From positions 1 through 34,876 of the IMG/VR virus record IMGVR_UViG_3300009428_000029: a stretch of DNA of 34,876 nucleotides, one strand, 5' to 3'. Shown piece after piece: positions 206-28,711 of this stretch (the first letter of the stretch is position 1; every line of letters starts with the position of its first letter). A program made the translations under genes and the position numbers. The notes under the pieces were generated by a model. It had not been told where the DNA came from, searched no databases, and was given only the letters and a program-made list of their open reading frames with translations. The stretch comes from a virus.

Positions 206-838
206 ATGTTTCATAAATTAGTAGATAAAGTATACGCAATAAACCTAAAGTCAAGTGAAGACCGAAGGGCTAATATTCTACAGCAATGTCATAAAATAGG
301 TACACATTTTGAATTAATTGAAGCTATAGACGGCAGGGAAGAAAATGTTAAATGGGTCGAAAACGAATGGAATAGTTGTGAAGATGGTTGGACACAAGGT
401 GCTGCTGGTTTAGTTTATACAACAATGAACATAATTAAGGACGCAAAAGAAAAGGGTTACAAGTCCATAATGATAATGGAAGATGATATAATCTTTAAAG
501 ATAATGCATACAAGGAAGGTAAAACACTTTTTAACGAATTACCAGAAGATTGGGAATTATTTCATTTAGCATCACAAAACTTTAAAAAACAACCAAGAAG
601 GTTCGGCGATTTAATTAGATTAACTGGTGCTTGGTCATGTCAAATATATGTGATTCATGAAAGAATATATGATGAATACTTAGAGTGGCTTGAACTGGTT
701 GATAGACCAATTGACAGTATTACAAGTGGTATAATACACCCAAGAGGTAAGTCATACGCTCCAGCACATGATTTAATAAGAACTATACCTAATTATTCAA
801 CAATAAGGGATAAGGAAATTAACTACGGAATAAGATAA
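206..838 (+). CDS. Glycosyltransferase family 25-like protein, copy 1
   Basis: A 210-residue protein with the layout of GT25 (LOS/LPS-type) glycosyltransferases. The N-terminal strand and sugar-nucleotide motif VYAINLKSSEDRR is at about residues 9-21, and the acidic metal-binding motif MEDD is at about 91-94 after a hydrophobic strand. A conserved AWSCQIYVI-like strand follows in the C-terminal half. These enzymes transfer sugars from nucleotide donors, usually in the cytoplasm. It sits directly after a fibre-like gene and one base before a paralogue, in one operon with a second fibre-like gene. The acceptor is unknown: a fibre protein or a host surface glycan are both possible. The family call is firm, the substrate is not. 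Confidence 0.8.
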   Translation: MFHKLVDKVYAINLKSSEDRRANILQQCHKIGTHFELIEAIDGREENVKWVENEWNSCEDGWTQGAAGLVYTTMNIIKDAKEKGYKSIMIMEDDIIFKDNAYKEGKTLFNELPEDWELFHLASQNFKKQPRRFGDLIRLTGAWSCQIYVIHERIYDEYLEWLELVDRPIDSITSGIIHPRGKSYAPAHDLIRTIPNYSTIRDKEINYGIR

Positions 839-839
839 T

Positions 840-1457
840 ATGTTAAACGAATTCTTCGATAAGGTCTACTTAATTAACTTACCCCAATCAACAGATAGGC
901 TTGAAAGGGCTATTATAAATTGCGAAAAAGTGGGTGTTGAATTTGAACTTGTGCCCGCTATTGACGGTATAAGTAAAGAAGTGATTATTAACGGTAAAGA
1001 ACATGACGGATGGAACAGGAACGCTGCTGCATTAAGTCTTACAACACTTAATATAATTAAAAACGCAAAAGAAAAAGGGTATAAGAATATATTCATAATG
1101 GAAGATGATATAGATTTTATACAAAATAGGTTTAATTTAATACTGACTAGAGCACTTAGTGGTCTACCTGAGGATTGGGATTTTTTTCATTTAAACGTAA
1201 CAAACGAAACCGAACCTTTATGGGTATCTAATTGTCTTATTAAACTTGGTGGTGCGTGGTGTTGTCAAGCTTATGGTATTAATTCCTCAATGTATGATAT
1301 TTATATAAGTGAGTTAGATAAACACATGATGCCTATCGATGAAATTACTAGGGACCTACATAAATCAAGAGGTAATTCCTACGCTACATTACCATCTATA
1401 GTCGTTCACCATGAAGGTAATTACTCAACGCTTAGAGAAAAGAATGTAGAATATTAA
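840..1457 (+). CDS. Glycosyltransferase family 25-like protein, copy 2
   Basis: A 205-residue paralogue of the preceding gene. The same motifs occur at the same places: VYLINLPQSTDR at about 9-20, the KEKGYKNIFIMEDD segment ending at residue 90, and an AWCCQAYGI strand that parallels AWSCQIYVI of copy 1. The start follows the upstream stop after a single base (TAA-T-ATG), so translation is probably coupled. The two copies differ clearly in the middle and C-terminal parts, so they are an old duplication that may act on different acceptors or add successive sugars. The next gene is a fibre- or spike-like protein, a possible acceptor. Confidence 0.8.
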   Translation: MLNEFFDKVYLINLPQSTDRLERAIINCEKVGVEFELVPAIDGISKEVIINGKEHDGWNRNAAALSLTTLNIIKNAKEKGYKNIFIMEDDIDFIQNRFNLILTRALSGLPEDWDFFHLNVTNETEPLWVSNCLIKLGGAWCCQAYGINSSMYDIYISELDKHMMPIDEITRDLHKSRGNSYATLPSIVVHHEGNYSTLREKNVEY

Positions 1458-3962: not shown

Positions 3963-4085
3963 CAGCTCTCGTTTAATGAACTTTCTAATAATACCTGGTG
4001 TGATACTATACTTAACCTATTTAAAACTTACTAGGCACTCTTAAAATAAGTTCTAGTTGGTGAATGTCTGTAACTGTTATTTAAA

Positions 4086-5171
4086 CTAACCATTAAACGG
4101 GTACAAACTCATCCATTTAATACCTATCGATGTACTAAGTTCTTCATGTACGCCGTAAAAATATTCATTATCCACAAACCCAAAATCATGCTTCTCAATG
4201 GCATCCTTTCCATCTTCTGAATAAACATTAGCAATCCCATCTATTCCTATTTTAATCTTAACACCATATTCATCAGTCTCAATTTGGTAACTATTATGTT
4301 TTTCAGCCATATATTTACTAACGCCATATATTAATCTTTCAACATACGCAAACAACTCAGGCATATACTGTTCTAATTCAGTTAATAAGTCAAATAAATT
4401 TTCTAACTCTAATTTAGTGTTAGTAAGTTCGTGAGCATCTATCGCATACTCAACCTTATCAGGTTTTTTATTGAACTCTTTTAAAATAAGGTCGTGTAAC
4501 TGTTTAAAAGGTTTATCCCAGTACACTTCTGGTAAATATATTCTCATATTAGCCTTACGATACCCATCGTTTCTAGCTGATGAAAACTTAAAAGTTTCAT
4601 CTTCTAAAGTTGCAGACGCTATATTACGCCCACGACTAAAATTAGGTACGACTTCGTGTAAAAATTCATTAAATTCATCAGGAAGTAAACTCGAAAATTC
4701 TCGATACTCACCAGAATTATTTAAATCGTAACTTTTCTTAAAACTTTCATCTTCTATTTCAGGTCCTTCAGGCCCCCAATCGATAATTAACACAGGTATC
4801 TTATCAAGACCTAGTTTACTAGCTGCAACAACTCTATGTCTACCCTCTTGCTCTCTATCTATATAGTTTAAGTACCCGATATTGTATTTAGCGCCCGAAG
4901 ACATATCCTTTATAATCTTATTTACATTTTCTTTATAAATATATTTAAATTGTTCCTCATAACTAGTATGTTGTATATTAGCGACCTCTTTAATATACTC
5001 CTCCATAGTCATATATTCAATATATGCTTCGTATCGTTTAAATTTTTCTGGTACGGCATCATAATTCTTAGCTAATAAATTATCATAATCTTGAGCACTT
5101 GTTTTTAAGTTGAAATATTCGCTTTCATTCAACAACCCTTCCCTCAGTAACTTCTTTATTAACCTCTTCAT
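4086..5171 (-). CDS. Tagged cargo protein with ParB-like domain
   Basis: A 361-residue protein. Residues 1-14 carry the MKRLIKKLLREGLL tag shared with two other proteins here; LRE at 9-11 fits the (L/I)-x-E cleavage rule of T4-type prohead proteases. Residues about 55-135 resemble the ParB/sulfiredoxin fold: an EGRHRVVAA motif at 109-117 is followed by LGLDKIPVLII, the typical Gly-Arg-His-Arg, helix, Ile-Pro-Val pattern. ParB-like domains bind nucleotides and some act as nucleases or NTPases. The C-terminal 200 residues are not recognised. It is the last gene of the cargo block downstream of the capsid gene. Packaging and injection are inferences from the tag; the biochemical activity is unknown. 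Confidence 0.7.
   Translation of the reverse strand: MKRLIKKLLREGLLNESEYFNLKTSAQDYDNLLAKNYDAVPEKFKRYEAYIEYMTMEEYIKEVANIQHTSYEEQFKYIYKENVNKIIKDMSSGAKYNIGYLNYIDREQEGRHRVVAASKLGLDKIPVLIIDWGPEGPEIEDESFKKSYDLNNSGEYREFSSLLPDEFNEFLHEVVPNFSRGRNIASATLEDETFKFSSARNDGYRKANMRIYLPEVYWDKPFKQLHDLILKEFNKKPDKVEYAIDAHELTNTKLELENLFDLLTELEQYMPELFAYVERLIYGVSKYMAEKHNSYQIETDEYGVKIKIGIDGIANVYSEDGKDAIEKHDFGFVDNEYFYGVHEELSTSIGIKWMSLYPFNG
5131..5162 (-). repeat. Tag-coding repeat, copy A
   Basis: A 32-base block starting aacaacccttccctcag on the plus strand; on the minus strand it encodes most of the IKKLLREGLL tag. It differs from copies B and C at a single base (aac instead of aat). Such near-identity between genes whose other parts are unrelated points to recent copying or recombination. 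Confidence 0.85.
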
Positions 5172-5174
5172 GTA

Positions 5175-5182
5175 TATAAATA
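5175..5182 (-). promoter_or_regulatory. TATTTATA box before the ParB-like cargo gene
   Basis: In the direction of the gene the octamer TATTTATA is followed by only three bases before the ATG at 5171. One of eleven same-orientation copies in the window. If it is a promoter -10 type element, the transcript would start at or very near the start codon. Confidence 0.4.
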
Positions 5183-5196
5183 TATAAAATTATTAT

Positions 5197-5415
5197 TTAA
5201 CAATCCTCTTTTTTACCCTTTTTTAAATTTAATAGTATATATTCACCAACTATGGTAGTTATAGAACCTAATATAAAAGCTATTAATTCTTCAATTCTAC
5301 CATTGGTATCATGTTCTAAGAACACTATACTAATAGTAGATATAACTAATATAGAACATAGTGTTATAGTTAGTAATAACACGGCAATATCTTTTGGTTT
5401 TAAGTCTTTAAACAT
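5197..5415 (-). CDS. Small two-helix membrane protein (holin candidate)
   Basis: A 72-residue protein with two predicted membrane helices: about residues 10-33 (AVLLLTITLCSILVISTISI) and 45-63 (FILGSITTIVGEYILL). They are separated by a short acidic and polar turn (EHDTNGRIEE), and the tail is lysine-rich (KKGKKEDC). Size, topology and positive C-terminus are those of many phage holins, but also of other small phage membrane proteins. It lies between two tagged cargo genes, 25 bases before one and 16 bases after the other, yet carries no tag itself. Holin function is a guess; the lysozyme-like gene is far away at 27707-28405. Confidence 0.6.
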   Translation of the reverse strand: MFKDLKPKDIAVLLLTITLCSILVISTISIVFLEHDTNGRIEELIAFILGSITTIVGEYILLNLKKGKKEDC

Positions 5416-5420
5416 ATATC

Positions 5421-5428
5421 TATAAATA
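5421..5428 (-). promoter_or_regulatory. TATTTATA box before the two-helix membrane protein
   Basis: TATTTATA in gene direction, five bases before the ATG at 5415. Same orientation and similar tight spacing as the boxes of the two neighbouring tagged genes, so each gene of this block may have its own start signal. Confidence 0.4.
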
Positions 5429-5431
5429 TAT

Positions 5432-6793
5432 TTAGTTAATGGTAATTTCTTTTATGTATTTTATTTTTGGTTTAGTCTCCGATTTAATTATAATCTCATC
5501 TTCATGTGAGTATTGGTGATACTCCATATCATCATTTTGAATCATTTCCCCTGTTAACTCATCCCAGAATAAACCAATGTTCTTTATTAATCTCTTATCG
5601 ATAGTGGTTTCAATATTAATATCCTCTTTATTGATTTCAGCTTCAATCACCACTAATACATAGTCTTCATCACTTGTAAATGACTCATACCTAAATAAAT
5701 TCTCAACAAAGTATTTATCTAATGACCAATGAACACCTAAATTATTTTTATTTATCCTTTTATCATCAATGGGTAATATTAACCCACGATACAAAGTGAT
5801 TACATTAGGTAAGTTATCTAAAAAGTCAATTATTTCATTCTTATCTGAAGAATATGTTTCTCTTAATTGGTTATAATACGAATCATTATCACCACTAAAT
5901 TGTCTTTTATAAATTGGTAGGTCATGTAGTTCATCAACACCATATGGTGCCTCAGCGTCATAATGTTTACCATCATAAACTATCCAAGTATGAGGTTCTA
6001 AATCATCACTATAATCAGAACTTATAACTAATTTTACCCCGTTGAACGTTCTATAAAAGAGTGAGTCAACTAATTCTCTGTCGAAAAAATATTCTAAAAC
6101 ATTAACAGCGAAATTATCACAAGAACCACTATTAATCTCCTCTATTGAGCAATTTGGTTGTAGACCTTGATATTTTGGTATTAGTTTCTTTATTATCTTA
6201 ATTAAATTAGACACATTAAATTCTAATTTATTATCAGTATAATCAAACGGACCAACTTTTAATTCCTTTAACAACCCTTCCCTCAGTAATTTCTTTATTA
6301 AATCATCTATAAAGGAAAAGTCGGGTTTGAACCCATAGTTATTTTCATCATTAATAAGTAATTTATTAGCTATATCACCAGTTGGGTCAATAACTGTCTT
6401 ATAATTTTTTAAATTAAACCGATTAACTATGTTTCCTTTTGTTGTAAAACCGCTTGAATCGTACAATTGGTCACCTACCTTAATGACAGTATGTACCAAG
6501 TAGTATTTATGTGGGTTAAATGGTGAGTCTTTATCACCCTCATAATCATCATCAATTTCATCGTATTCGTTACTAAATTCAAAAAAATGAATTAATGGAT
6601 AACGACTACCTTTAGTGGGTAATAATTCTTTTATCTTTAAAGCTAAATAAGTACATTGTGCCATACCACTATTATTAAAATCTGGATGTTCTTTACTGAT
6701 TTTATCACTAAGATTAATTAACGCCTGCTTATCTAAAGAATGTGATTCTCTTAACAACCCTTCCCTCAGTAATTTCTTTATTAAATACGTCAT
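5432..6793 (-). CDS. Double-tagged cargo polyprotein, Cys-His-Asp and ART-like domains
   Basis: A 453-residue protein with two copies of the tag: residues 4-14 (LIKKLLREGLL) and again at about 165-175, each with L-R-E suited to prohead protease cleavage (after E11 and E172). Between the tags, C47, H101 and D112 lie in a pattern (MAQCTYLA ... YYLVHTVI ... QLYDSSGF) like papain- or transglutaminase-type folds. The second part has a similar C225, H268, D279 arrangement (SGSCDNFA ... PHTWIVYDGKHYDAE). The C-terminal 125 residues resemble ADP-ribosyltransferases of the R-S-E class: LYRGL at 334-338, GVHWSLDKYF at 353-362 and E-D-E at 431-433. Cleavage would give two mature proteins. The domain calls are by motif pattern only. 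It lies just behind the capsid gene terminator. Confidence 0.7.
   Translation of the reverse strand: MTYLIKKLLREGLLRESHSLDKQALINLSDKISKEHPDFNNSGMAQCTYLALKIKELLPTKGSRYPLIHFFEFSNEYDEIDDDYEGDKDSPFNPHKYYLVHTVIKVGDQLYDSSGFTTKGNIVNRFNLKNYKTVIDPTGDIANKLLINDENNYGFKPDFSFIDDLIKKLLREGLLKELKVGPFDYTDNKLEFNVSNLIKIIKKLIPKYQGLQPNCSIEEINSGSCDNFAVNVLEYFFDRELVDSLFYRTFNGVKLVISSDYSDDLEPHTWIVYDGKHYDAEAPYGVDELHDLPIYKRQFSGDNDSYYNQLRETYSSDKNEIIDFLDNLPNVITLYRGLILPIDDKRINKNNLGVHWSLDKYFVENLFRYESFTSDEDYVLVVIEAEINKEDINIETTIDKRLIKNIGLFWDELTGEMIQNDDMEYHQYSHEDEIIIKSETKPKIKYIKEITIN
6270..6301 (-). repeat. Tag-coding repeat, copy B (internal to a gene)
   Basis: A 32-base block identical to copy C and one base different from copy A. 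It encodes the internal tag of the 453-residue cargo protein. Its place in the middle of a frame suggests that two tagged genes fused, or that the tag was copied in. Confidence 0.85.
6753..6784 (-). repeat. Tag-coding repeat, copy C
   Basis: A 32-base block identical to copy B, encoding the N-terminal tag of the 453-residue cargo protein. The fourth protein-level tag, at 26849, is not conserved at DNA level. Confidence 0.85.
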
Positions 6794-6796
6794 GTT

Positions 6797-6804
6797 TATA
6801 AATA
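6797..6804 (-). promoter_or_regulatory. TATTTATA box before the double-tagged cargo gene
   Basis: TATTTATA in gene direction, three bases before the ATG at 6793 and downstream of the capsid gene terminator. That makes a separate promoter for the cargo block plausible. No TTG is found at the -33 distance. Confidence 0.42.
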
Positions 6805-6832
6805 TCTGTGATTATTATAAAAGTTAAGACAT

Positions 6833-6861
6833 AAAAAAAAGGTGAACATAAATGCTCACCT
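6833..6861 (-). terminator. Intrinsic terminator after the major capsid gene
   Basis: On the minus strand a 9-10 bp stem (AGGTGAGCAT pairing with ATGTTCACCT, one G-U pair) with a very short loop is followed by eight T's. It lies 30 bases beyond the stop of the capsid gene and before the cargo block. Confidence 0.8.
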
Positions 6862-6890
6862 TTCTTAAATATGTAAAGATTATATTTCTA

Positions 6891-8696
6891 TTATCTCAAT
6901 TCTGCAACATTAAATGTTGGAACACCATCAACTCTAACATGTCCGTAGAAACGGTTATTAACCATTTTCTTAGCGTATCTTGTCATGATTCCTTTTACAG
7001 GAGCAAAGTTGAACGGATTGTACATTGTTGGAGTAAGTTGCATTGGCACGTATGGTGCGTAGATGTAACCAGTGTCTAACAATGATTTTCCTTTATGTCC
7101 AATAATCATAGAGTATGCAGGAGCATATGGGTCTCTGTAGATTTGGTATCTTCCTGAAAGAGAACCAACTCTTTCAATACCCATGTTATATTGGTCTTGC
7201 TCTGGGTTAGCGTCAGAAACGTGGAAGTATTCTAAATCATCAAAAATAGCTGAGATTTCAGAAGATACTACTACGAAGTTTGCACCACCTCTAAGTGTAG
7301 ACTTATGAATTTGTGCAGAAATTTGGTTAACTTTAGTTAATAAAGTTTGATTCCAATCTTTTTGCGTATAAGGGCTAGCAGCAGTAGAAGCTTTTCTCCA
7401 TCCGTTGTAATCCCATCTTGTAGAAACACCAGCAACTCTTAAGTCTCTAAGTATCTCTCTATCAATCTCTGCAGCAACTTGCTCAGAAAGGATAGCAGTC
7501 AATTCAGCTTCAGCGTCAATGTTGTGGAATGCACTAACATCTTGCGCTAATTCTGGAGACCAAGTAGCTCTAAGTTTTCTTTCTTCAACAGCTACAACAA
7601 CTTCGTCAAGCTTGAAAGAAACCTCTCCTAATTCTGTTTCTAATTCTAAAGAAGCATATTGTGTCCAAGAAATTTCAAAATCAGCAACAGTGTGATTTGC
7701 TTGAGTACCACTCATAGCAGCTCCAACGTATCCATCAAAAGTAGATGTTCCGTTAGAATCAACTGGCTTAGTTAAATCAACTTCAATAAATAAAGCTCCT
7801 GTTGTATCAACAGTATCGCCATATTCAACAATACCTTTTCCGTATTTTTGAGTAACTAATCTAAATGGTACTTGACCACCAGCAGCAACGATTACTTTAG
7901 AATCAGCATCAGTTAAACCACTAACAGAAGTAACTTTTAAAGAAGCTAAGAATGCTTCAGTATCCATTTCGTTTCCGTCTGGTCCAGTTAATACACCTTT
8001 TGCTCTTCCAGCTCCAAATCCACCTACCTTAACGATAGCACCTCTAAGTGAACCATCAGTAGCTCTTGGAAGTACACCAAATGTAGCTCCAGAAGTAAAT
8101 GTTCCATTAGCACCTAAAGTTTGTAATGATTTTGTTGGGTTAGTAAACATAGTTACAGTTCCTTTTGAATTATCAAATAATCCATCATTGTAGTATAAGT
8201 CATATAAAGACTTAGCTTTCATTGTTGTAGCAGCACAACCGTTAGAAACGTCTACACAGTCAGGAAGACCGTCAGCAGCCATACCAGTGTGTGCAGAATA
8301 CTGAGCACCATTAGCTCCGTAAAAATCTCCAGCCTCAGCAGGAGTAGCACCATTAACTCTGTTAGAAGTTTGCGGTACAAAGAAGAACAATTTACCAATT
8401 GGCATGTTCATAGCCTGTACAGACACGATGTCGTTTGCTAATAATTTTGAGAATACCCGTCTTACGATAGGGAATACTACAGTTTCGAAAGACCCTGAAG
8501 ACGAAGCGTCAGTAGTTTCTGTTAATAAAGAAGACGCTTGGTTCTCAAATAATTGAGCAACGTTTTCTTTAACGTGACCTTTAAGTCCTTCTAAGAATCC
8601 TAAAGAATCCCATTTTTGTTGAGTTTGAGTACGGATAGCCTTCATGTGGTTTAATCCGATGTTCCCAACTTGTCCTGAATTTAATAAATGTGACAT
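6891..8696 (-). CDS. Major capsid protein, T4 gp23-like
   Basis: A 601-residue protein with the gp23 pattern: a helical N-terminal propeptide, then a VRRVF...DIVSVQAMNMPIGKLFF region (about 77-108) that matches the conserved gp23 segment around VRR...DI..VQPMN.P.G. It is longer than T4 gp23 (521 residues). The propeptide ends with a likely prohead protease site, L-T-E at 58-60, followed by a Ser/Thr/Ala-rich linker, so mature capsid protein would begin at about T61. It forms the hexamers of the head shell. It is the last gene of the head module, directly after protease and scaffold as in T4, and is followed by a strong terminator. Confident by sequence and gene order. Confidence 0.92.
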   Translation of the reverse strand: MSHLLNSGQVGNIGLNHMKAIRTQTQQKWDSLGFLEGLKGHVKENVAQLFENQASSLLTETTDASSSGSFETVVFPIVRRVFSKLLANDIVSVQAMNMPIGKLFFFVPQTSNRVNGATPAEAGDFYGANGAQYSAHTGMAADGLPDCVDVSNGCAATTMKAKSLYDLYYNDGLFDNSKGTVTMFTNPTKSLQTLGANGTFTSGATFGVLPRATDGSLRGAIVKVGGFGAGRAKGVLTGPDGNEMDTEAFLASLKVTSVSGLTDADSKVIVAAGGQVPFRLVTQKYGKGIVEYGDTVDTTGALFIEVDLTKPVDSNGTSTFDGYVGAAMSGTQANHTVADFEISWTQYASLELETELGEVSFKLDEVVVAVEERKLRATWSPELAQDVSAFHNIDAEAELTAILSEQVAAEIDREILRDLRVAGVSTRWDYNGWRKASTAASPYTQKDWNQTLLTKVNQISAQIHKSTLRGGANFVVVSSEISAIFDDLEYFHVSDANPEQDQYNMGIERVGSLSGRYQIYRDPYAPAYSMIIGHKGKSLLDTGYIYAPYVPMQLTPTMYNPFNFAPVKGIMTRYAKKMVNNRFYGHVRVDGVPTFNVAELR

Positions 8697-10214: not shown

Positions 10215-10254
10215 AAATAAATTCCTATTAAATTATTTTAATAGGAATTTATTT
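10215..10254 (-). terminator. 18-bp perfect inverted repeat over the protease stop codon
   Basis: The arms at 10215-10232 and 10237-10254 are perfect reverse complements separated by four bases. The stem is AT-rich, one arm codes for the last residues of the prohead protease, and the loop contains most of its stop codon. On the minus strand a T-rich stretch follows but the U-run is interrupted. It could be an inefficient terminator, an RNA processing site or a 3' stabiliser that lowers protease output relative to scaffold and capsid. Structure certain, function inferred. Confidence 0.65.
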
Positions 10255-10931
10255 ATCTTATCTACTAGTATATTTTTTTTATTTTCTTTTGATTCTGTAA
10301 ATGGTTTAGCTTGAGCAGCATCCTTAAACATCCATGAACCAGGGGTGCTAGGTGATGTTACAACATCCCAGCAAATTAATTCAAAGTCATCTTGAACTAT
10401 GTTTTGACCAGCTATCTCCTTAAGAGAACCAACACCTCTTGAGGATACGCCAATCATAATATTATTTCTAACTAAGTTAGCGACTTCATCACCCTTAGTG
10501 GAAACTATACCGTAATTAACATACCCAGGCGACATAAGAATTTCCATCTTACCCATAAGTGTTTTACCTTCCCACCAAGTTTCTGTGATATTATGTGATA
10601 TCCTATCACCAGCAATTATTGATGACTCTGGATGGTCTAATTCACCAATAGCTCTCCTCTCTTTTATTAACTGTTGGTAATTGTTGTTTTCTCTCTCAAG
10701 TATTTCTTTTGGATATATCCTACCGTTTCTATTCTTAACACCCCACTTTTGTAGAACGACATATAATATTAACGGAGAAGCTATAATAGGACTTCCAGCG
10801 TCTAATTTTTTTATTTCGTTTACGAATGGTTTATTTCTAGAGTCACCTGGATTAATAAATCCAGCATCCTGCTCTATCAAGACACCTAAACCTTGTTGTC
10901 CAGGTTTTAATATTTTTAAGTCTTCTGACAT
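10233..10931 (-). CDS. Prohead protease, T4 gp21-like
   Basis: A 232-residue serine protease of the phage prohead/herpesvirus assemblin-like fold. The hallmark GELDHPE motif supplies the catalytic His at residue 100. The GVSSRGVGSL motif supplies the nucleophilic Ser at about 163-164 with the conserved Arg-Gly next to it, as in T4 gp21. N-terminal residues NGRIYPKEIL are also typical of the family. In T4 this enzyme cleaves scaffold, capsid protein and internal proteins after (L/I)-x-E. Here suitable sites occur in the capsid protein (L-T-E) and in the cargo tags (L-R-E). It is followed by an 18-bp hairpin and then the scaffold gene. Confident call. Confidence 0.92.
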   Translation of the reverse strand: MSEDLKILKPGQQGLGVLIEQDAGFINPGDSRNKPFVNEIKKLDAGSPIIASPLILYVVLQKWGVKNRNGRIYPKEILERENNNYQQLIKERRAIGELDHPESSIIAGDRISHNITETWWEGKTLMGKMEILMSPGYVNYGIVSTKGDEVANLVRNNIMIGVSSRGVGSLKEIAGQNIVQDDFELICWDVVTSPSTPGSWMFKDAAQAKPFTESKENKKNILVDKINKFLLK

Positions 10932-11849: not shown

Positions 11850-12299
11850 CTATAAATCTGTAATATCTATATGTGTCCCAACCATCCTGATTGGTTTATT
11901 ATTTTTATCCCACTCTATAACACTACCTCTACATAAGATTGTTATTTCGTGACCCTCCTTGTGCGTGTACCTACCTATTGACCTATAAGGCAAAGTACCT
12001 TTACTATTAGCATGTTTATCAAACTTATCTAACGCTAATTTTAAATCTTCAGGATGTATTAATGACATCCAAGACTCAGGTTTGTTTTCCATTTCGTCAA
12101 CTTCGTAACCTAATTGTTTTTTAAACGCTGGACTAAGGTATTGGATATTATTAACAACATCCCAATCCCAATAACCATCAGTAGTAAGTTCAAGAGTAAG
12201 TTCAAGAATTTCCCTCATCTTAAAAACTTCTGCGTCACGAATTGGTAATTTAGTTACTAAGTTACGTAACTTTTTTATATTTTCTGACTCCCTGAACAT
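11850..12299 (-). CDS. Stand-alone PAS domain protein
   Basis: A 149-residue protein. Residues 30-149 match the PAS (PAS_3-like) fold: TTDGYWDWDVVNNIQYLSPA at the first strands, LGYEVDEM, the WMSLIHPEDL segment, then the RSIGRYTHKEGHEI and GSVIEWDKNNKPIRMVGT beta strands ending in DITDL. PAS domains sense small ligands, redox state or light, or mediate protein contacts. No kinase, cyclase or other output domain is attached. It sits three bases after the 271-residue helical gene and one base before a coiled-coil gene, inside the head module between portal and protease. A chromophore- or ligand-binding residue cannot be named. Fold confident, role unknown. Confidence 0.88.
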   Translation of the reverse strand: MFRESENIKKLRNLVTKLPIRDAEVFKMREILELTLELTTDGYWDWDVVNNIQYLSPAFKKQLGYEVDEMENKPESWMSLIHPEDLKLALDKFDKHANSKGTLPYRSIGRYTHKEGHEITILCRGSVIEWDKNNKPIRMVGTHIDITDL

Positions 12300-24130: not shown

Positions 24131-24161
24131 TTGATTTTTTATAAATTGATTTGTATATTTG
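24131..24161 (+). promoter_or_regulatory. Bacteroidota-type promoter for the ClpC-like gene
   Basis: TTG at 24131-24133, a 20-base spacer, then TATATTTG at 24154-24161. Transcription would start near 24168, about 12 bases before the ATG at 24180. It also shows that the TTG codon at 24159 is part of the promoter, not the start codon. Confidence 0.7.
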
Positions 24162-24179
24162 CGTAAAGATATTATTAAT

Positions 24180-26771
24180 ATGAAAGGGAAGAGAGAAGTG
24201 GTTAAAAAAGTTAAGGCTATAATGAAATTAGCTCAAACAGAAGCTAAAAACAATGCTGACAGAGAGTTAAGACCAGAACATATCACATTAGCTATTCTGC
24301 AAGAAGAAACTAATAGGTCAAATAAAGTTATTAAAAGTATGGGTATTGACACACTTAAGTTGTATGACTTAGTTAGTCAACATTTAAGACACAACCAACT
24401 TAATAGTACTATATCAGATGTAAAGAAACTTAGAGCACCATTAGATACTAATAGCAGTAAAATAATGAAAGGTGTTGATGAGGAAGCTGAATCTATAGGT
24501 GATTTACATATCGATACAACACATATCATTCTTTCGTTATTAAGAGAAACAAAATCACCCCTAACTAAATTGTTAGTTAAGAATAAATTAACTTATACCA
24601 AGTTTAAAAAAGCGATAGTTAATTACGAAAATCTTAATGATAAAGATTTAACAGATTATGAAAAAGAAAAATTAAAAGACATGGAAAATAGATTGAATGA
24701 ATTTAAAGAAGATATTGAAAACTCATTACCATTTGACGATGATGATAACGGAAACCCACTAGGTGAAAGTGTTGGACCCAACAAAGGTAAGAGTAAACTA
24801 AAACGAAAAGAGACTAGTAAAACTCCAGTATTAGATAACTTCTGTAGAGACATATCTAAAGTTGCTACTGAAGGTGACCTTGACCCCGTAGTCGGTAGAG
24901 TTAAGGAGATTAAGAGAGTGTCTCAAATATTAGCTAGAAGAAAAAAGAACAACCCAATACTCATTGGTGACCCAGGTGTGGGTAAGACTGCTATTGTTGA
25001 GGGTCTCACTATGCTTATTAAAGATAATAAGGCACCCAGAATTCTATTAGATAAAAAGATTTATTCATTAGATTTAGCATCAATAGTTGCAGGTACTAAA
25101 TATAGAGGTCAGTTTGAAGAAAGAATGAAAGCTATTCTTGAAGAATTAAAAGAAAATAAAGATATTATATTGTTTATTGATGAGATACACACTATAGTTG
25201 GTGCTGGAAACGCATCTGGAAGTATGGATGCTGCAAATATCTTCAAACCAGCATTAGCTAGGGGAGAAATTCAAGTAATAGGTGCAACAACACTTGATGA
25301 ATTTAGAGAAAATATTGAAAAAGATGGTGCACTAACAAGAAGGTTCCAACAAGTATTAGTCGAAGAACCTACACTTGAAGAAACAACAGTAATACTTAAA
25401 AATATCAAGCAAAGGTATGAAGACCACCATAAAGTTATTTATACTGATGATGCAATCGAAGAATGTGTTAAGTTAGCAGATAGATATATAATGGATAGAG
25501 CTATGCCAGATAAAGCTATAGACGTGTTAGATGAAGCTGGTTCAACTACAAACATTAATCATGACGCTCCTGAAAATATAAAGAAACTTGAAGAAAAATG
25601 TTTAGAATTAAAAGAAGAAAAGGTCTTTGTAGTTAAGAGTCAGAAATATGAAGAAGCTGCAAAATTAAGAGATGAAGAAAAGAAAGTTATAGAAACATTG
25701 AAAATTGAAAAAGATAAGTGGCTTGACAGTATGGATAAGAGTAGAACTACTGTTGATGTTGACTTAGTTGCTGAGGTAGTTTCAATGATGAGCGGAATCC
25801 CAATTAATAAAATATCTTCACAAGAAACTAAAAAACTTGTAACAATGGATAAGGAATTAACTGGTAGAGTTATCGGACAAGACGATGCCGTTGTTAAGGT
25901 TGTTAAAGCTATTAAAAGAAATAGACTTGGAATTAAAGACCAAACTAAGCCAATCGGCTCGTTCATATTCTTAGGGCCAACTGGTGTAGGTAAAACTTAC
26001 TTAGCTAAACTACTTGCTGAATCAATATTTGGTGATTCGGACGCTCTAGTTAGAGTTGACATGTCAGAATACATGGAGAAACACGCTGTGTCTAGACTTA
26101 TAGGTCCGCCTCCAGGGTATGTTGGTTACGAAGAAGGTGGTCAATTAACGGAGAAAATTAGAAGAAAACCTTATTCAGTTATACTCTTTGATGAAATTGA
26201 AAAAGCGCATGATGATGTATTTAATTTACTTTTACAATTACTTGATGAAGGTCAGTTAACTGACGGTCTTGGTAGAAAAGTGAACTTTAAAAATACACTA
26301 ATCATCCTTACATCTAATGCTGGTGTTCAACAACTTAATAACTTTGGTAAAGATATGGGTTTCAAAACAAAAGCTACTGTTGTTAATGAAGAAGAGAAAG
26401 TTCGTTCAATTATTAGTAAGGAACTTAAGAAGAAATTTAAACCTGAATTCCTTAATAGGATTGATGATACAATTATATTTAATTCATTAAATCAAAATGA
26501 TATTCATAAAATTATTCATATGGAATTGGATAAATTAAAAGCTAGGGTTAAAGAATCTTTAAATATTACACTTAAGATTAATAAAACCGCTATTGAACAT
26601 GTCGCAGTACAAGGTTACGACAAGGCTTATGGCGCTAGACCGCTTAACAGAGCTATTCAAAATTATATTGAAGACCCAGTAGCTGATGAAATACTTAGTG
26701 GTAATTTCAAGGATGGTGATACAATTAAGATATCATTTGATAAAAAAACTTCAAAATTGGTATTATCTTAA
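24180..26771 (+). CDS. ClpC-like AAA+ unfoldase
   Basis: An 863-residue HSP100 ATPase that unfolds proteins. Domains in order: Clp N domain (about 1-150, ELRPEHITLAIL), a charged linker, AAA module 1 with Walker A GDPGVGKT (about 261-268) and Walker B LFIDEIHT, a short middle region with a UVR-like motif (SQKYEEAAKLRDEEKK, about 486-501), and AAA module 2 with Walker A GPTGVGKT (about 598-605), Walker B ILFDEIEKAH and FLNRIDD arginine-finger region. The UVR motif and size match ClpC rather than ClpB. The DMGFK tripeptide loop near 725 corresponds to the VGF/IGF loop that docks ClpP, so it could use host ClpP. ATG at 24180 is chosen because an upstream TTG lies in the promoter. Confidence 0.92.
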   Translation: MKGKREVVKKVKAIMKLAQTEAKNNADRELRPEHITLAILQEETNRSNKVIKSMGIDTLKLYDLVSQHLRHNQLNSTISDVKKLRAPLDTNSSKIMKGVDEEAESIGDLHIDTTHIILSLLRETKSPLTKLLVKNKLTYTKFKKAIVNYENLNDKDLTDYEKEKLKDMENRLNEFKEDIENSLPFDDDDNGNPLGESVGPNKGKSKLKRKETSKTPVLDNFCRDISKVATEGDLDPVVGRVKEIKRVSQILARRKKNNPILIGDPGVGKTAIVEGLTMLIKDNKAPRILLDKKIYSLDLASIVAGTKYRGQFEERMKAILEELKENKDIILFIDEIHTIVGAGNASGSMDAANIFKPALARGEIQVIGATTLDEFRENIEKDGALTRRFQQVLVEEPTLEETTVILKNIKQRYEDHHKVIYTDDAIEECVKLADRYIMDRAMPDKAIDVLDEAGSTTNINHDAPENIKKLEEKCLELKEEKVFVVKSQKYEEAAKLRDEEKKVIETLKIEKDKWLDSMDKSRTTVDVDLVAEVVSMMSGIPINKISSQETKKLVTMDKELTGRVIGQDDAVVKVVKAIKRNRLGIKDQTKPIGSFIFLGPTGVGKTYLAKLLAESIFGDSDALVRVDMSEYMEKHAVSRLIGPPPGYVGYEEGGQLTEKIRRKPYSVILFDEIEKAHDDVFNLLLQLLDEGQLTDGLGRKVNFKNTLIILTSNAGVQQLNNFGKDMGFKTKATVVNEEEKVRSIISKELKKKFKPEFLNRIDDTIIFNSLNQNDIHKIIHMELDKLKARVKESLNITLKINKTAIEHVAVQGYDKAYGARPLNRAIQNYIEDPVADEILSGNFKDGDTIKISFDKKTSKLVLS

Positions 26772-26848: not shown

Positions 26849-27700
26849 ATGAAACATCTAATAAAGAAGTTATTACGAGAGGCGTTGGTAAATGAAATTA
26901 GCGACGAAGCATACGAGTTGTTAAAAACTAAACATAATAACTCTAGAGTAATAATGAGTAAAGAAAAAGAAATTTCATTTAGAGACCAATCAAATCAAAA
27001 AACAGGGAGAAAACCAAAAGGTTTATGGTATGGAATTGGAGCATCATGGATAGATTGGGTTAGGGGTGAAATGCCAGAGCGGGAAGAAGATTACACCCAT
27101 TTAATTGATGTTGACCCTAATAAAATTAAAGTAATTAAAAATTACGATGAATTAATTGAATTTAATAAACAATATTCCGAAGGGGATAATATTAACTGGG
27201 GTGAAGTAGCAAGGACCTATGATGGTATAGAGATAGTACCGCATATAGGTAAGGCTAGATTTGAACTTGATTGGTATGGCACATGGGATATTGCATCTGG
27301 TTGCATATGGGGAGGAAATGCAATAAAGGGGGTTAACAATTTAAATGATAAACAACAAGACTATAAAAAGGTATATAGAGGTCAACCAAAAGAATATGAC
27401 GCTATATCACCTTTAGGTTCATTTAGAGTAACTTTTGATTATTACTATTCAAAAGAACATGGTGATGATACAGAATACAAACTACCAAAAAGTTTAAAAA
27501 TAATAGATGTAGGAGACTACAGTACTTGGAGACCACTATTAGATGAGTTTACGGATATTGATAATGATGATGATTACTGGGAATACATGGACCGATTTAT
27601 TCCAAACGAAGAAATTATATTATTCTTAAAATCAAAGGGCTATGAGGGGCTTAAAGATGATACTGAAGTTTTAGTCTTTGATAAGAAAAATATAATTTAA
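26849..27700 (+). CDS. Tagged cargo protein with ART-like C-terminal region
   Basis: A 283-residue protein starting MKHLIKKLLREALVNE, the shared tag with L-R-E at 9-11. ATG at 26849 is chosen because it gives the tag at the very N-terminus; a longer frame from 26816 would read through the terminator. Residues about 57-160 form a Trp-rich domain (GLWYGIGASWIDWVRGEMP, INWGEVARTYDGIEIVP, TWDIASGCIWGGNAI) that I recall from other large phages without a known function. Residues about 174-283 (VYRGQPKEYD, GSFRVTFDYYYSKEHG, LKSKGYEGLKDDTEVLVFD) resemble ADP-ribosyltransferase-like domains of phage polyvalent proteins. Activity is unproven. It stands apart from the other tagged genes and on the opposite strand. 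Confidence 0.75.
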   Translation: MKHLIKKLLREALVNEISDEAYELLKTKHNNSRVIMSKEKEISFRDQSNQKTGRKPKGLWYGIGASWIDWVRGEMPEREEDYTHLIDVDPNKIKVIKNYDELIEFNKQYSEGDNINWGEVARTYDGIEIVPHIGKARFELDWYGTWDIASGCIWGGNAIKGVNNLNDKQQDYKKVYRGQPKEYDAISPLGSFRVTFDYYYSKEHGDDTEYKLPKSLKIIDVGDYSTWRPLLDEFTDIDNDDDYWEYMDRFIPNEEIILFLKSKGYEGLKDDTEVLVFDKKNII

Positions 27701-28519: not shown

Positions 28520-28711
28520 TTACTTTTTAGCTGAAGAGATAGCTCTAACTTTAGCTTCTAACTTAGCAATCTTACTTTCCAAAATAGTACCTTGAGAAGC
28601 TTTTTGCTCCGCTAACCATTCTTTTTTCTTTTCAACTACCGCTTCAGAAACGATGTTATCGATTAATTCTACTAATTCGTTTTCTGTGATTTTAACTGAT
28701 TTCTTTGACAT
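28520..28711 (-). CDS. Small helical protein with ITEN-type N-terminus
   Basis: A 63-residue Lys/Glu-rich protein, mostly one amphipathic helix with a short coiled coil at the end (ILESKIAKLEAKVRAI). The N-terminus MSKKSVKITENELVELIDNI is strikingly like that of the gene at 31221-31562 (MRKKLVITENQLKMLTSVL), and both reach a Ser-Glu at about residues 21-23. The shared start may be a second kind of targeting peptide. Function unknown. It is transcribed alone, between a TATTTATA box and a terminator. Confidence 0.6.
   Translation of the reverse strand: MSKKSVKITENELVELIDNIVSEAVVEKKKEWLAEQKASQGTILESKIAKLEAKVRAISSAKK

Follow-up and report, generated by a model that had tools for sequence, protein, structure and literature searches.

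In phage T4, unrelated proteins are directed to the head by capsid-targeting sequences, whose last residues form the gp21 motif L/I-x-E (PMC9026906). The polyvalent proteins are multi-domain proteins predicted to be injected together with the DNA, for which release mainly by embedded zincin peptidases has been proposed (Iyer et al. 2017, PMC5512222). In the giant phages phiKZ, 201phi2-1 and SPN3US, a gp21-like protease cuts many head proteins after glutamate, with several cuts in each (PMC9026906, PMC10052503). The locus described here resembles the first of these systems: as in T4 IPI-III and Alt, unrelated bodies follow a short N-terminal peptide with L/I-x-E at its end, and an S77 protease is encoded in the head module (PMC9026906). 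One open-reading frame of the locus carries the peptide twice.

The window (by which we mean the whole stretch of DNA analysed, 34,876 nucleotides) is a single IMG/VR virus record, IMGVR_UViG_3300009428_000029. It encodes a T4-superfamily head module consisting of a gp23 capsid, a scaffold-like protein, an S77 prohead protease (gp21), a portal and a terminase. The head and cargo genes that bear on the comparison, apart from the double-tagged gene itself, are:

6891 to 8696, minus strand: major capsid protein gp23 (Pfam Gp23, E 2.4e-71).
10233 to 10931, minus strand: gp21-type S77 prohead protease, predicted to do the processing (Pfam Peptidase_S77, E 1.3e-25; phrog_207, E 4.3e-40).
4086 to 5171, minus strand: neighbouring tagged cargo gene, MKRLIKKLLREGLLNES..., with a ParB-like QEGRHR stretch (weak ParB-like phrog_8071 match, E 0.039).
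26849 to 27700, plus strand: third tagged cargo gene, MKHLIKKLLREALVNE..., with the same tag at its start.

Both of these cargo genes begin with the tag of the double-tagged gene, and the third is identical in one relative (L012) over the stretch covered there. The gp23 sequence reads LLTE near residue 60, and this L-T-E is a candidate site for maturation. The window also encodes a PAS-domain protein within the head-gene cluster (PAS_3, E 2e-21; 11850-12299, minus strand), which is present in two tandem copies in L025, a complete Clp-type AAA+ ATPase with Clp_N and ClpB_D2 domains (24159-26771, plus strand) and two family-25 glycosyltransferases in tandem (206-1457, plus strand).

The double-tagged gene, reported in an earlier note as a 453-residue frame at 5432-6793, has exactly these coordinates and lies on the minus strand. 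Its parts are as follows:

5432 to 6793, minus strand: P0001, the double-tagged protein of 453 residues (open-reading frame with translation; codon usage).
6761 to 6793, minus strand: N-terminal tag MTYLIKKLLRE, residues 1-11, a predicted propeptide with a predicted cut after E11.
6302 to 6760, minus strand: first unit, residues 12-164, with a putative C47/H101/D112 pattern (read from the sequence only).
6278 to 6301, minus strand: internal tag LIKKLLRE, residues 165-172, with a predicted cut after E172 (exact repeat of the N-terminal tag).
5894 to 6226, minus strand: Cys-His-Asp domain, residues ~190-300 (C225, H268, D279), of an 11-member phage family.
5435 to 5821, minus strand: residues 325-453 at the C-terminus, resembling an ART in motif order only (LYRG...HWS...EDE).

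There are two copies of the peptide LIKKLLREGLL, one spanning residues 4-14 (L-R-E at 9-11) and one spanning 165-175 (L-R-E at 170-172), which confirms the two tags of the earlier note as an exact 11-residue repeat. It is the longest exact repeat within the protein and lies beyond chance, the maximum in 2000 composition shuffles being 6 residues. The L/I-x-E motif alone was rejected as evidence for cut sites, as the protein holds 8 such motifs against 7.1 in shuffles (P=0.41), so that only the tag as a whole can carry the argument. Over the entire length of the gene, junction included, this frame is the one favoured by codon usage. Between residue 44 and residue 417 the frame offers no Met, so the second unit and its tag would be translatable only within the fusion, barring an unusual start codon. 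Directly before the internal tag stands TTTATAGAT, which looks like a leader minus its start codon, a weak likeness in that ~6% of window positions score equally well.

To place the tag among related phages, we gathered tagged loci from IMG/VR with a degenerate DNA pattern (29 stretches), followed by two more pattern scans. In the 29 stretches, nearly all tag copies follow a start codon by only a few residues, MKxLIKKLLREGL being the typical form. The three scans together yielded 56 N-terminal instances in 528 kb of loci, a count that includes the window twice (as the window and as L001), and the double-tagged frame was the only one in those loci with two tags. One candidate for a second internal tag of this class (L003) was rejected and counted as N-terminal, as a Met lies five residues before its tag. 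When 28 tagged proteins from the IMG/VR loci and the window were aligned, the tag supplied the only strongly conserved columns; its residues were selected by the search, whilst its N-terminal position and the absence of other conservation were not. The bodies behind the tag include ART-PolyVal, GNAT, NUDIX and nucleotidyltransferase families, and this cargo fits enzyme families known from injected effectors. A short N-terminal peptide is thus common to otherwise unrelated proteins, it ends in L/I-x-E (L-R-E in both copies of the double-tagged protein), and a gp21-type S77 protease and a gp23-type capsid are encoded in the same genome. In these respects the tag matches the behaviour expected of a capsid-targeting propeptide of the T4 type. 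Its sequence differs from that of the T4 tags, and a limited literature search did not find the string LIKKLLRE together with the word phage.

Tags also vary on a single body. The body beginning RYMFFSNLEQ... stands behind a different N-terminal tag in each of L106, L115 and L128; all three tags finish with [LI]xE immediately ahead of it, and they have the look of exchangeable propeptides. With L122 included, the body is found behind differing N-terminal tags in four loci, as if tags had been swapped. A second class of tag is found elsewhere as an N-terminal tag on stand-alone proteins, and a tag of this class II type stands at the N-terminus of a protein starting MSKKSVKITENELVELIDNIVSE in the window itself (28520-28711, minus strand).

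The two units of the double-tagged protein differ in how far their domains can be identified. The earlier note had proposed a Cys-His-Asp pattern in each half, and this holds for the second, where an alignment of 11 phage proteins shows N221, G223, C225, F228, H268, D279, E281 and G285 to be invariant. These N, G, C, F, H, D, E and G residues place the domain in the Cys-His-Asp family of 201phi2-1 gp345, a real phage family, and the triad suggests a hydrolase or transferase. An AlphaFold model of the domain alone has a mean pLDDT of 86, and Foldseek against BFVD matched it to proteins of Phabio, Psa21, 201phi2-1 and Atu_ph07 (best E 1e-5), whilst a search of the PDB gave no match with E <0.001. 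In the full-length model only residues ~190-300 are confident, with the C-terminal region at pLDDT <50, and a PDB search with that model consequently says nothing. For the first unit (C47, H101, D112), no homologue was found in the IMG/VR scans or by tblastn in phages, and neither BLASTP nor hhalign detected a relation between the two Cys-His-Asp sets. The ART-like region with which the earlier note had ended the second half shows the order of motifs and gained no support from Pfam, NCBIfam or phage tblastn, nor from hhalign against the tagged L007 protein, and no ART profile matched the second unit. The first Cys-His-Asp set and the ART-like region are thus assigned at motif level only.

Searches with larger parts of the protein gave little more. 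The IMG/VR scans held no homologue of the whole protein or of either half, the sequence had no match in the PDB, the only part that tblastn matched in phages was the Cys-His-Asp domain, and a search of genome contigs returned a single, distant match. The earlier note had proposed a comparison with relatives in which the halves are separate genes; in the IMG/VR scans and phage tblastn we saw no such genes, and no homologue of the whole protein or of its first unit came to light.

The architecture recurs in relatives found independently of the tag. Among 80 loci found via the capsid protein, modular open-reading frames lie downstream of the capsid gene in at least 16 (17 counted, duplicates included; L107 duplicates L106, and L123 and L124 duplicate L122). 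Modules M1, M2, M3 and M4 appear in differing combinations across these relatives. In a working set of 15 proteins, 38 of 40 module starts, and 23 of the 25 internal ones, fall directly after [LI]xE, a motif with a density of ~0.013 per residue in the modular proteins, the module edges having been drawn with the motif in view. A check on this is provided by M3, found after M1, after M2 and at the N-terminus: between these three contexts similarity rises at position -3, where the motif starts. M4 similarity extends further upstream, and the edge check is independent of the drawn edges for M3 only. In L122, L133 and L144, M4 holds a HELKHEQQ-type, metallopeptidase-like motif and is joined after I-L-E, with a weak DUF6782 match in L122.

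Some of these joints consist of more than the motif. Class II tags stand internally and complete with their Met in L137 and L135, and without Met in L110, whilst tag-like joints with Met occur in L106 and L146. The proteins of L135 and L137 may represent one origin, because they have M1-M3 in common and diverged second bodies; L128 has M1-M3 and no second tag. The phages with the [LI]xE-joined family share ~56-60% MCP identity with the window and are not its nearest kin. In both the double-tagged protein and these relatives, at least two separable units are encoded in one open-reading frame with protease motifs at the joints.

Two tagged cargo genes have very probably been fused in the double-tagged gene, a reading that is well supported because the internal copy comprises the whole of a tag that elsewhere is N-terminal and because like joints recur in relatives. 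Where the earlier note had left the choice between a fusion of two tagged genes and a functional design, the fusion thus stands, and it most probably yields a functional polyprotein, a reading favoured by the gp21 S77 protease in the same module, by the recurrent architecture and by the tags swapped on one body and ending at L/I-x-E. We infer cleavage, packaging, injection and activity of both units, and consider cleavage and packaging, taken together, to be probable. On this reading, the fusion of two capsid-tagged cargo genes would have produced one open-reading frame for a two-unit head-cargo polyprotein, whose N-terminal tag would carry the precursor into the prohead core. There the gp21-type prohead protease is predicted to cut after L-R-E at E11 and E172, with L-R-E and L-K-E five residues downstream as alternative sites. 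The products would be a unit of ~150-160 residues and a Cys-His-Asp/C-terminal unit of ~275-280 residues, both of which would be retained in the head and pass into the host along with the DNA, like T4 Alt and the internal proteins.

The gene itself behaves as a mobile unit, bounded by two copies of a short leader:

6797 to 6805, minus strand: leader ATATTTATA before the double-tagged gene, one cassette edge (identical to the sequence at which the empty site of L013 is joined).
5421 to 5429, minus strand: second leader ATATTTATA, before a 72-residue gene, the other cassette edge.

In L013, which is ~88% identical to the window, the capsid gene and the next genes are present and the double-tagged gene is absent. 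Window positions 4077-5429 and 6797-7859 adjoin there, with the joint exactly at ATATTTATA, and the gene is thus a clean cassette, gained or lost at the leader repeat. A leader resembling ATATTTATA precedes most tagged genes. The leader of the tagged gene of L013 (3923-3993) matches that of the window gene starting at 6793 at 22 of 24 positions, and that of its own orthologue in the window at only 19 of 24. Leaders and tags appear to have been exchanged between genes, as these sequences suggest. Other tagged genes stand soon downstream of the capsid gene in several relatives among the loci gathered by tag, and among the 80 loci found via the capsid protein few (5 of 76 testable) have a LIKKLLRE-type tag in the 1500 nt that follow the capsid gene.

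Absence from the nearest relative also speaks for a recent, accidental fusion by recombination in this lineage, with the internal tag a leftover that has no selected role; its product may be packaged and incidentally cut, or stay a two-domain fusion. The DNA of the two tag copies matches at 34 of 36 nt, with a block of 35 nt identical, where ~4.5 million synonymous spellings of the peptide are possible, so the copies are either recent or homogenised. The double tag is, moreover, unique among open-reading frames with tags of this first class in close kin. We nevertheless consider an accident unlikely, as the frame is intact with normal codon usage across the junction, and both tag-joined and L/I-x-E-joined architectures have been kept in several relatives. 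Even a fusion of this origin would still have a protease motif at its joint.

Less probable still, and by a clear step, is that the tag is a functional amphipathic helix for membrane, core or partner binding and not a propeptide, with the protein working uncut as a two-domain effector. LIKKLLREGLL could form such a helix, and variants of T4 IPIII can be packaged unprocessed (PMC9026906). Against this, the differing tags on the RYMFFSNLEQ... body all stop at L/I-x-E, the homology of M3 between its contexts begins at that motif and the S77 protease gene belongs to the same cluster. That an assembly or sequencing artefact joined two open-reading frames is hardly credible: the contig is metagenomic with repeated short tags and the gene is known from one record only, but the sequence at the joint is unique and upstream of the repeated block, where repeat collapse would not create it, the two bases found here in place of the usual six between ATG and tag are not explained by a single-base error, and the frame is codon-typical on both sides of the joint.

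A processed two-unit polyprotein remains our preferred reading, and it differs from each of the known systems in a definite way. In descriptions of T4, the internal proteins have a propeptide at the N-terminus and Alt is cut at each end, whereas the two tags here would give two mature cargo proteins. The cuts reported for SPN3US remove propeptides from single mature proteins, unlike those predicted for the two-unit protein. The invariant N-G-C-F...H...D-x-E set is shared with 201phi2-1 gp345, Psa21 gp29 and a protein of D6, but in those phages the family is stand-alone or fused to a dual-specificity phosphatase, whilst here it is tagged and fused to an ART-like region. With the polyvalent proteins, the tagged cargo has in common ART, GNAT, Pol-beta-type nucleotidyltransferase, ParB-like and metallopeptidase domains (PMC5512222), and the double-tagged protein has two units, with one verified domain. 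Its joints, and those of the relatives, are prohead-protease motifs or full capsid-type tags, in contrast to the zincin release proposed for polyvalent proteins. A limited literature search found no description of multi-effector precursors released by a prohead protease.

A wider model, to which we give an even chance, is that in this group of T4-superfamily phages the host-takeover proteins packaged in the head are produced as modular polyproteins, in which modules are swapped by recombination at shared leaders and tags, the joints are prohead-protease sites or whole second tags, and one capsid protease frees the effector set inside the head. If true, packaged and injected phage proteins, and the starts of mature effectors, could be recognised from sequence alone by their N-terminal tags and joint motifs, and many of the hypothetical proteins beside capsid genes would become a catalogue of candidate injected enzymes. 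The T4 capsid-targeting rule would then extend to multi-effector precursors released by the capsid's own protease. We regard the double-tagged protein as a variant form of the capsid targeting of T4, conceptually like the polyvalent proteins but with the capsid protease as the predicted agent of release, a different route from the embedded peptidases proposed for polyvalent proteins.
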